Source: Nitrospirales bacterium (GTDB taxonomy: Bacteria > Nitrospirota > Nitrospiria > Nitrospirales > UBA8639). Taken from it: a stretch of DNA of 35,344 nucleotides. Numbering within the stretch: the first letter of the stretch is position 1; each line of letters begins with the position of its first letter. The DNA lies in NCBI GenBank assembly GCA_012270585.1, contig JAAXIB010000067.1, positions 1 to 35,344 of the forward strand. Direction: 5' to 3'. The notes under the pieces are model-generated. The model searched no databases and had not been told where the DNA came from. It saw only the letters and a list, made by a program, of their open reading frames with translations. The translations under genes were made by a program, and so were the position numbers. This document shows positions 12,937 to 29,936 of the stretch, piece after piece.

Positions 12937-14430
12937 TCAGCGCGTCAGTGTATCCTCGACGTCGGGTGGAGTGGCGACGATCAATGCGCCAAGATGCGGA
13001 TACTGTTTCATGATCTGTTGTTTCATGGCCCAGGCCACCGTGCGGTATGACCAATGGCCTTTGACCCCCGACCGGAGTTGGCACATGTACTCCGCCTGGG
13101 CATAGTCCATTTTAAAAACACATCGCACCTTGAACCCGAAAGGAAGCGCGTAAATCGAAGCTTCCTGATCCATCCCCCGCAACCGTTCGATATCGTGTCG
13201 AACCTCGTCCATGGCCAGTTGATACTCCCGATCCAGTTTGGCCTCATACAACGGATGCGGGACTTCATAGCCGTGAACGGCGGTAAAATTTTGTTGGATC
13301 TGCTGGCACCGTCGATGCCGGTGCAGATCCCGCCATCCTCCGATATCCATCAACACGTCGAAGATGAGGGGATACCCGCAGCGAAACTCCTTGATCAACT
13401 CGTCATAGGGCCCCCGACGGCGCAAGGCCACGTCAAGGGTCTCCTGCTTTTCCTTTTCCGGCCAGTCCCGTACCAGTTCCAGAATCCGGCGATACGGCGC
13501 ATGACTGACGCGATACAACACACTCGTGACCAGTTCATCCATCAACGAATGCGGCTCGATGAGATCGACCGGCACCACCTGATCGGTCCAAGCCGACGGC
13601 TGATCCAAGCCTGCCCTGTGCAGGATTTTCTTGGCGTGTCTTGACAGATCACGATAGACCTCCGTCTGGTACTCATTGGCCTTGGCGTGACGGGCCAACG
13701 TCGGCGCGAGCGGCTCCTCGGGCTTGCCGGTCTCGCCGCACAACTCGCCCCACACGTTCGAGGGCACTTTCGCACAGGCTTCTTTCAACTCCTGGCCAAG
13801 GGCCCGGAGTTCGGGAAGCTGCGTCGATAAGAATCGGGTGATCTGTTTTTCCAGAGTCCGGATACTCACCACCTGTCCGACGTTCGTCGTGGAGGCCAGG
13901 GGCAACAGATACCGGGTGATGTCGTACACGCGCGCGGCAAGGGTTCGCCCGTAATTCGCTTCGCTCATGGAATCGGGTCTGGGATATTGCCGTTGAAGAT
14001 GTTCGAGCAGCGGATCATGAAACGTTCGATAGAGATTGAACAGGCTGCCGAGAATCCCGCGATAGAACGCCTCGGGTTCGGAATCCCGGATGGTTGACGG
14101 CACGTAACAGCCGGACACGGCAAAGTTCTGATACCGGCTGGACTTGGCCTGTCCATCCCACAGCGGTTCATCTTCCAGGCGTATGGCCGCTAATTCGGAA
14201 ATGTCTTCCAGGCACACGGTCACGTGCCCGAGGTCGGCGATCGACGCATGTCCATAGGCAAAATAGAACTGCTCCCAAAACTTTTCGGACGAGTGCCCGT
14301 GGACCCACCGCAAACTGTCTTCAATGGAATCAGGGGAACGGCTGTACCGGGCAAGGGCATAAGCCGCTTTCTCGGGCGGCATGGGCGCGAGGACCACGAC
14401 TCGATGCAGGGTGTTTTTTTCATTGGCCAT
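12937..14430 (-). CDS. Double-domain ThyX-like protein, 497 aa
   Basis: Two ThyX (FAD-dependent thymidylate synthase) type domains are fused. The N-terminal one (about 25-180) includes EKFWEQFYFAYGHASIADLGH and SSRYQNF (97-103). The C-terminal one (about 290-490) includes RDLHRHRRCQQIQ with RHR at 371-373. Classical ThyX has both halves, RHRxxSxNxxSxRY, in one motif. Here the N-terminal domain keeps only SxRY-like residues and the C-terminal one keeps only RHR, with the usual serine position replaced by Gln. It is about twice the usual ThyX length. Annotation pipelines would call it thymidylate synthase; a role in dTMP synthesis is uncertain. Start ATG 14430 has a promoter 41 bases upstream. 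Confidence 0.75.
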   Translation of the reverse strand: MANEKNTLHRVVVLAPMPPEKAAYALARYSRSPDSIEDSLRWVHGHSSEKFWEQFYFAYGHASIADLGHVTVCLEDISELAAIRLEDEPLWDGQAKSSRYQNFAVSGCYVPSTIRDSEPEAFYRGILGSLFNLYRTFHDPLLEHLQRQYPRPDSMSEANYGRTLAARVYDITRYLLPLASTTNVGQVVSIRTLEKQITRFLSTQLPELRALGQELKEACAKVPSNVWGELCGETGKPEEPLAPTLARHAKANEYQTEVYRDLSRHAKKILHRAGLDQPSAWTDQVVPVDLIEPHSLMDELVTSVLYRVSHAPYRRILELVRDWPEKEKQETLDVALRRRGPYDELIKEFRCGYPLIFDVLMDIGGWRDLHRHRRCQQIQQNFTAVHGYEVPHPLYEAKLDREYQLAMDEVRHDIERLRGMDQEASIYALPFGFKVRCVFKMDYAQAEYMCQLRSGVKGHWSYRTVAWAMKQQIMKQYPHLGALIVATPPDVEDTLTR

Positions 14431-28991: not shown

Positions 28992-29936
28992 TTACGTTTC
29001 CATCAAAGCGAGAATATGGTGTTCAACCGAAGCGGCAAGTGCCCGGAGATCATAGCCCCCCTCAAGGCAAGCCACAATGCGGCCCTCACAATGGGTTTGA
29101 GCTATGGACCCCACAATGCGAGTGAGTTCGCCGTAGCCCTCATCCGTGATCCCCATACTCGCCAGCGGGTCATCCCCATGGGCATCGAATCCGGCCGATA
29201 TCAATACGAATTCGGGTTGAAACGCCGCCGCCGCCGGAACCAATTTCTGACGAAAAATGTCCCGATACTCATCCGTGCCCTGCCCCCCATACAGGGGCAC
29301 GTTGATGGTCGCACCTTCTCCTTTCCCTCTGCCACGCTCAGTTTCTGACCCGGTCCCCGGATAATGGGGATACTGGTGCGTGCTGAAAAAAAGGACGGAG
29401 GGATCGTCTTCAAACGCGTGCTGGGTGCCGTTCCCGTGATGCACGTCCCAATCCACGATCAGCACGCGATCGAGGCCATGACGCTGCTGGATATACCGAG
29501 CTGCAACCGCCACGTTATTATACAGGCAAAAGCCCATGGCGCGATTGGCTTCGGCATGGTGCCCCGGCGGACGAACCGCACAGAAGACCTGATCGACTTG
29601 CCTCGCCATGACGGCATCGACGGCCGCCAGGGCCCCGCCGACGGCAAGTTGCGCGGCGGGCAACGAACCGGGTGACAAGGAAGTGTCCAGATCGAGTGAC
29701 GCATAGCCCATACTCGGGGCCCGATCTTCCAGCCGCTGTATGTAGGCCGGATCATGAACACGGGTTATCCAGTCCGTCTCGGCTTTGCGTGGAGCAATCC
29801 GGGTCAACTTAGACATCGTCCCGGTTGATTCGAGCCGAGCGACAATGGCCCGCAGCCGCTCCGGCGACTCCGGATGGTGCCGACCCATATCATGTTTCAG
29901 ATACGCCGGATGCGTCACGATTCCCACGCGGCCCAT
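28992..29936 (-). CDS. Histone-deacetylase-superfamily amidohydrolase, 314 aa
   Basis: The active site of the class II HDAC/acetoin utilisation/acetylpolyamine amidohydrolase superfamily is intact: RPPGHHAEA (His126, His127), zinc ligands in DWDVHHGNGT (Asp164, His166) and GFDAHGDDPL (Asp252), and the late LEGGYDL. It would remove acetyl groups from lysines or polyamines; the substrate is unknown. No signal peptide is seen. AAGGA lies six bases before ATG 29936. It is the first gene of an operon with the multiheme cytochrome and rhodanese. Confidence 0.95.
   Translation of the reverse strand: MGRVGIVTHPAYLKHDMGRHHPESPERLRAIVARLESTGTMSKLTRIAPRKAETDWITRVHDPAYIQRLEDRAPSMGYASLDLDTSLSPGSLPAAQLAVGGALAAVDAVMARQVDQVFCAVRPPGHHAEANRAMGFCLYNNVAVAARYIQQRHGLDRVLIVDWDVHHGNGTQHAFEDDPSVLFFSTHQYPHYPGTGSETERGRGKGEGATINVPLYGGQGTDEYRDIFRQKLVPAAAAFQPEFVLISAGFDAHGDDPLASMGITDEGYGELTRIVGSIAQTHCEGRIVACLEGGYDLRALAASVEHHILALMET

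Follow-up and report, generated by a model that had tools for sequence, protein, structure and literature searches.

The gene that occupies positions 12937..14430 of the 35,344-nucleotide stretch of Nitrospirales DNA analysed here (the window) raises the question of whether a ThyX-like protein, whose catalytic signature is divided over two fused domains, can still be a thymidylate synthase. An earlier note, made from the letters alone, had proposed either a composite single active site formed between the two domains or a flavin-binding paralogue that no longer makes dTMP, in which case the name thymidylate synthase would be wrong. The distribution of the catalytic residues, their conservation among relatives and the gene content of the genome and its order favour the composite site: with a probability of roughly 85%, the protein would be an active flavin-dependent thymidylate synthase made of two fused, sub-functionalised ThyX subunits, whose homodimer would mimic the canonical tetramer, two of its sites being live and the other two dead. 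The window is C77, one of the contigs of a Nitrospira-type (Nitrospirota) assembly of 2.5 Mb (G000), the completeness of which is given as 100%, and holds the following features of the gene (Mtb, Mycobacterium tuberculosis; Tm, Thermotoga maritima):

12937..14430, minus strand: gene of the fused two-domain ThyX, encoding 497 aa before the stop, its ATG start at 14430 being consistent with the homologues
14499-14471, minus strand: promoter-like TTGAGA-17-TATAGT of this gene, a consensus match only
13681..14430, minus strand: N-terminal ThyX-fold domain, residues 1-250 (AlphaFold2 model, VIA-align, hhalign)
14242..14253, minus strand: G60-H-A-S63 (GHxS) of the N-domain, with S63 as Mtb Ser71 equivalent (subunit B role) and including the neighbouring GH-His equivalent
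14164..14172, minus strand: D87-E88-P89 of the N-domain, at the RHR position, motif lost
14131..14142, minus strand: S97-S-R99-Y100 (SSRY) of the N-domain, equivalent to Mtb Ser105/Arg107/Tyr108 (subunit C role, dUMP and lid)
13912..13914, minus strand: R173, N-domain only, equivalent to a conserved Arg that the alignment numbers as Mtb 172
12940..13578, minus strand: C-terminal ThyX-fold domain, residues 285-497 (AlphaFold2, VIA-align, hhalign)
13312..13320, minus strand: R371-H372-R373 (RHR), C-domain only, equivalent to Mtb Arg95-His96-Arg97 (FAD binding, subunit A role)
13303-13305, minus strand: Gln376 of the C-domain, at the RHRxxS position, Mtb Ser100 equivalent lost
13279..13290, minus strand: N381-F-T-A384 of the C-domain, at the SxRY position, motif lost
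13072..13074, minus strand: R453, C-domain only, equivalent to Mtb Arg199 and Tm Arg174 (dUMP activation)

The conserved neighbours of the gene are uninformative, with a TPR gene directly downstream in 26/69 loci with room for one and TPR matches that are unspecific. Elsewhere in the window (28992-29936, minus strand), a gene of the histone-deacetylase family (PF00850, E 1.9e-105) adjoins a multihaem cytochrome-like gene.

Both halves of the protein (P0001) are related to ThyX by profile and by predicted fold. The Pfam model Thy1 (PF02511) matches it in two stretches (E 1.6e-25 for the whole protein; score 90.4 bits, cut-off 24.8) and is its sole Pfam match at E <= 1, a match to PF00303 (ThyA) being absent; 54/54 relatives also match Thy1 (E <= 0.01). 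Searches with the same protein returned no PDB sequence at E <= 10 and no NCBIfam model at E <= 1e-10. An AlphaFold2 single-chain prediction built on the 54-row family alignment reached a pLDDT of 91.7 and a pTM of 0.89, and its residues 17-260 superpose on Mtb ThyX 2af6_C with a VIA-align Z of 11.9 (rmsd 3.6, 202 residues; unrelated rows Z <= 4.4). The C-domain modelled alone (pLDDT 88.0) superposes on ThyX 3fnn with a Z of 11.7 (rmsd 5.9, 179 residues; unrelated rows Z <= 3.2), and hhalign joins both domains to canonical ThyX (N-domain E 4.1e-12, C-domain E 2.1e-5). By prediction, both domains have the ThyX fold, as in the canonical ThyX/FDTS of T. maritima (TM0449) and M. tuberculosis, although PolB, which methylates UMP/dUMP and shares this fold, also appears among the structural matches of both, and the fold alone cannot separate ThyX from a PolB-type enzyme.

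The active site of canonical ThyX draws on three subunits: subunit A gives RHR 95-97 and Arg199, subunit B gives Ser71 and Arg190, and subunit C gives Arg87, Ser105, Arg107 and the Tyr108 lid (PMC6514825). A profile alignment of each domain against a canonical set of 31 rows (30 Nitrospirota ThyX and the Mtb ThyX fragment), in which all the mapped positions are invariant and RHR and SxRY sit on one domain (31/31 in each case), places the residues of subunit A (RHR, Arg199) in the C-domain only, and those of subunits B and C (Ser71, Ser105, Arg107, Tyr108) in the N-domain only, where R191 also aligns with Mtb Arg190. Each of these equivalents, like the RHR, SxRY and GHxS motifs of canonical ThyX, is present once per chain, whereas RHR and SxRY are divided over the two domains in the window protein and its relatives. 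The earlier note had already seen the SSRY half in the N-domain and RHR in the C-domain, here residues 97-100 and 371-373, and realignment revealed no canonical motif within either domain, the reciprocal positions being D87-E88-P89 and N381-F-T-A. Unlike canonical ThyX, the protein thus consists of two fused domains with the whole site in neither, and it lacks two canonical invariants: Arg87, for which the N-domain has E79, and Ser100, the position of Gln376. Each domain has lost the catalytic residues retained by its partner, so that a working site would exist only at the meeting point of the two halves.

The Gln at the RHRxxS position was also read correctly, but its interpretation as the loss of a key catalytic Ser is rejected. 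According to the accessible part of PMC8316439, Tm R174 (Mtb R199) activates dUMP, and the S88A, R90A and Y91A variants consume the flavin carbinolamine more slowly; Tm R78 faces the reduced FAD in the accessible part of PMC11940539. Tm S88, the Ser on which the published mechanism relies, belongs to SxRY, which is kept, and R174, S88, R90 and Y91 all have one equivalent per chain of the window protein. The RHRxxS position is unconstrained, because 12 different residues occur there in the family (Q, W, V, T, N, P, Y, F, K, G, S or M in the census), and a Gln at this place counts for little.

This census comprised 134 relatives: 80 Nitrospira loci (the best 80 of 219), phages, viral contigs and plasmids. 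Six named phages (6/16 records) and six plasmids (6/10 records) were taken from tblastn. For the viral contigs an alignment-based scan was productive and single-protein scans gave nothing usable; all 41 contigs were found by motif patterns that included SxRY or RHR, so that each contributes independently only through the motif outside its pattern. S97, R99, R173 and S63 are each kept in 133/133 relatives and Y100 in 132/133, one viral contig being devoid of the N-domain, while the C-domain RHR is kept in 131/134 and R453 in 134/134. The three exceptions to RHR carry RHN and are plasmid homologues from Bacillus/Paenibacillus (L190, L192, L193), with SQRY in their N-domain; these plasmids, of ~205-229 kb, may be large phage-like elements. 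Among the residue types listed, at most the eight commonest per group, there was no RHR in the N-domains and no SxRY in the C-domains. Nitrospira members retain the Arg190 equivalent, whereas phages mostly have E, Q or D at this position. Across the 54 rows of the family alignment, S97, R99, Y100, R173, R371-H-R373 and R453 are invariant down to 21% identity; alignment A2 took 53/121 candidates (< 93% identity, at least 350 aa). The relatives identified by name are nearly all Nitrospira or Nitrospirales MAGs (67-94% identity). As S97/R99 and RHR are invariant in 54/54 relatives and nearly so in the census, the split is not a product of chance or drift. With residues divided exactly by subunit roles, and the pattern kept in phages, plasmids and bacteria, the composite site proposed in the earlier note is supported.

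The gene content of the genome agrees with a role in dTMP synthesis. The fused gene is the only PF02511 gene of the window genome, and the search for another thyX or a thyA that had been suggested found neither above cut-off, the best match to PF00303 having 12.5 bits. The genome carries a thymidylate kinase; among enzymes supplying dUMP, it showed no trimeric dUTPase (PF00692), dCTP deaminase (PF22769) or dUTPase_2 (PF08761). A census of 198 genomes of the phylum included 56 of the order (its own, 5 of the same genus, 4 of the same family and 46 of the same order), 55 of which have a two-stretch ThyX match, and none of the 56 gave thyA, thymidine kinase (TK) or folA at E <= 0.001. TK matches elsewhere in the phylum (19-25 bits, mostly in ORFs of ~360-400 aa) were treated as noise. 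At the level of the class, the family model matched in 224/269 genomes (153/176 of those with at least 90% completeness). Among the 198 genomes of the phylum census, the two members of the class without PF02511 (G159 and G175) have a thyA match of ~1e-115, with folA starting 18 bases past its end. ThyX yields THF and so spares FolA (accessible part of PMC9931769), and the order census fits this chemistry, with thyA replaced and folA dispensable: like canonical ThyX, the fused protein stands in for thyA in genomes without folA. The sole candidate in a complete genome, near-universal in the order and complementary to thyA plus folA, the fused protein should make dTMP.

One genome of the order (G018, 99% complete, 230 contigs) showed no fused gene, other thyX, thyA, TK or folA, reflecting either an assembly gap or another source of dTMP. 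Two others (G153 and G161; loci L131 and L132) have a separate single-domain ThyX besides the fused one. In the phylum, G032, G101, G138 and similar genomes without PF02511 gave weak partial ThyA-like matches (1e-8 to 1e-14, ORFs of ~230-350 aa), perhaps divergent ThyA.

The placement of the residues leads us to infer a single FAD/dUMP site at which the two halves are in physical contact. Two chains would pair into a pseudo-222 tetramer, with the C-domains in roles A and D and the N-domains in roles B and C. At each live site, RHR and Arg453 of one C-domain would take FAD and activate dUMP, one N-domain would hold dUMP through Ser97/Arg99 and its Tyr100 lid, and Ser63 of the other N-domain would hold the FAD phosphates, whereas the two sites around the degenerate RHR region of the N-domains would be dead. 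In the geometry of a 222 tetramer, the split would fit a single arrangement, in which the site of a C-domain contacts both N-domains and not the other C-domain; each dimer would then have two live sites and two dead ones, as compared with four live sites in canonical ThyX. The expected chemistry is that of ThyX: the methylene would pass from methylene-THF to the flavin N5 and then to dUMP C5; NADPH would serve as reductant, and the product would be THF instead of DHF.

A composite site might also operate in a different assembly, such as one site per chain without any tetramer or a higher oligomer. The model is of a monomer only, and the poor conservation of the Arg190 equivalent (subunit B) in phages would fit a looser contact with a third subunit; the retention of Ser63, the other subunit B residue, in every N-domain of the census is what would be expected if a second N-domain touches FAD, which makes these alternatives rather unlikely. 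The objection that the protein is a ThyX-like flavin-binding paralogue, which makes no dTMP or, in the manner of PolB with UMP, methylates a different nucleotide, touches the function itself. A signature broken within each domain, the loss of the Arg87 and Ser100 equivalents and the presence of PolB, with the same fold, among the structural matches all speak for it. However, a complete genome that lacks TK would have no PF02511/PF00303 candidate besides this paralogue; the paralogue would be spread through a whole order in complementarity to thyA plus folA, and it would have kept, once per chain, every mechanistic residue named in the accessible part of PMC8316439. This reading, and with it the suspicion that the name thymidylate synthase is wrong, is thus highly improbable.

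It would be stranger still if the fused gene were decaying and dTMP were made by some other, unrecognised enzyme. The genome G018, without fused gene, thyX and thyA, is compatible with such a scenario, but the motif residues are invariant, the best matches listed of the class census contain no stop codons in the gene, and dN/dS values of 0.10, 0.12 and 0.16 in three pairs (two more pairs were saturated) indicate that the fused gene is under purifying selection. The chance that the gene is in decay is accordingly minimal, and an active enzyme with a composite site remains the preferred reading.

Duplicated ThyX proteins as such are already known. In Chloroflexi they likewise carry two ThyX domains per chain, and were in print in 2009 as having 'not been characterized', the accessible text giving no motif split (PMC3224940). 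The PHROG family 36506, 'thymidylate synthase' of the Microcystis phage Ma-LMM01 type, matches P0001 over residues 22-475 (E 2.9e-34) and has the same split signature; the named phage genes of this type share 22-35% identity with the window protein and have mostly lost the Arg190 equivalent. RefSeq entries named 'FAD-dependent thymidylate synthase' on large plasmids of Miltoncostaea, Euzebya, Parabacteroides, Bacillus and Paenibacillus are full-length tblastn relatives (20-28% identity) with SxRY in the N-domain, and RHN in the Bacillus/Paenibacillus members. The ThyX of Chlamydia trachomatis is probably a two-domain protein, about twice the usual length. It has been cloned and assayed (accessible part of PMC3498832), and a literature search found no description of it as a two-domain protein. 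The same search, with subscription journals mostly outside its reach, found no description of a split ThyX site.

A second family of tandem ThyX proteins occurs in 16 other Nitrospirota genomes (L115-L130). They have ~520-600 residues, one being cut by a contig end, as compared with 497 aa in the window protein, and show the same two-domain split: SQRY is in the N-domain only, and RHR and the Arg199 equivalent are in the C-domain only (16/16; the count took ORFs holding both RHR and SQRY, and none of the 16 loci is without either). In a domain tree of hand-picked rows, the N-domains of both families join (82/81), while canonical ThyX is joined by the C-domains of the second family (84/86) and the first family's C-domains stand apart, on long branches; this pattern would fit one fusion as well as two.

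In a 33-row tree (rows < 80% identity and > 380 aa), the Nitrospira clade is sister to a gene of Tunturi_5, a jumbo phage of Tunturiibacter (support 89/80). The remaining rows come from phages, viral contigs and large plasmids and from one further family of Nitrospirota. In Tunturi_5, the fused ThyX gene follows a dCMP deaminase gene, which fits a supply of dUMP. A phage origin of the fused gene is a lead rather than a result, all the bacterial genomes sampled being of Nitrospirota. In a wider scenario, possible but tentative, a whole order would have given up its cellular thymidylate synthase for a fused ThyX of phage type, with its nearest relatives found in jumbo phages. It would be an obligate two-site enzyme that divides catalysis between two sub-functionalised domains, and the same split would have arisen twice, in separate tandem families.

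In the canonical homotetramer, where each site draws on three subunits, a point mutation affects every role at every site. In the fused protein, the role of binding flavin and activating dUMP and that of holding dUMP and closing the lid would lie on different domains, each of which could be mutated separately. One FAD and one dUMP are expected per two-domain chain, half the stoichiometry of canonical ThyX. The split would also account for the hesitant motif-based reading of such proteins in Nitrospira, large phages and plasmids, in which the label of thymidylate synthase seems worth keeping. If the replacement by a phage-type enzyme is true, DNA synthesis in Nitrospira would depend on a gene whose nearest relatives found are in jumbo phages.
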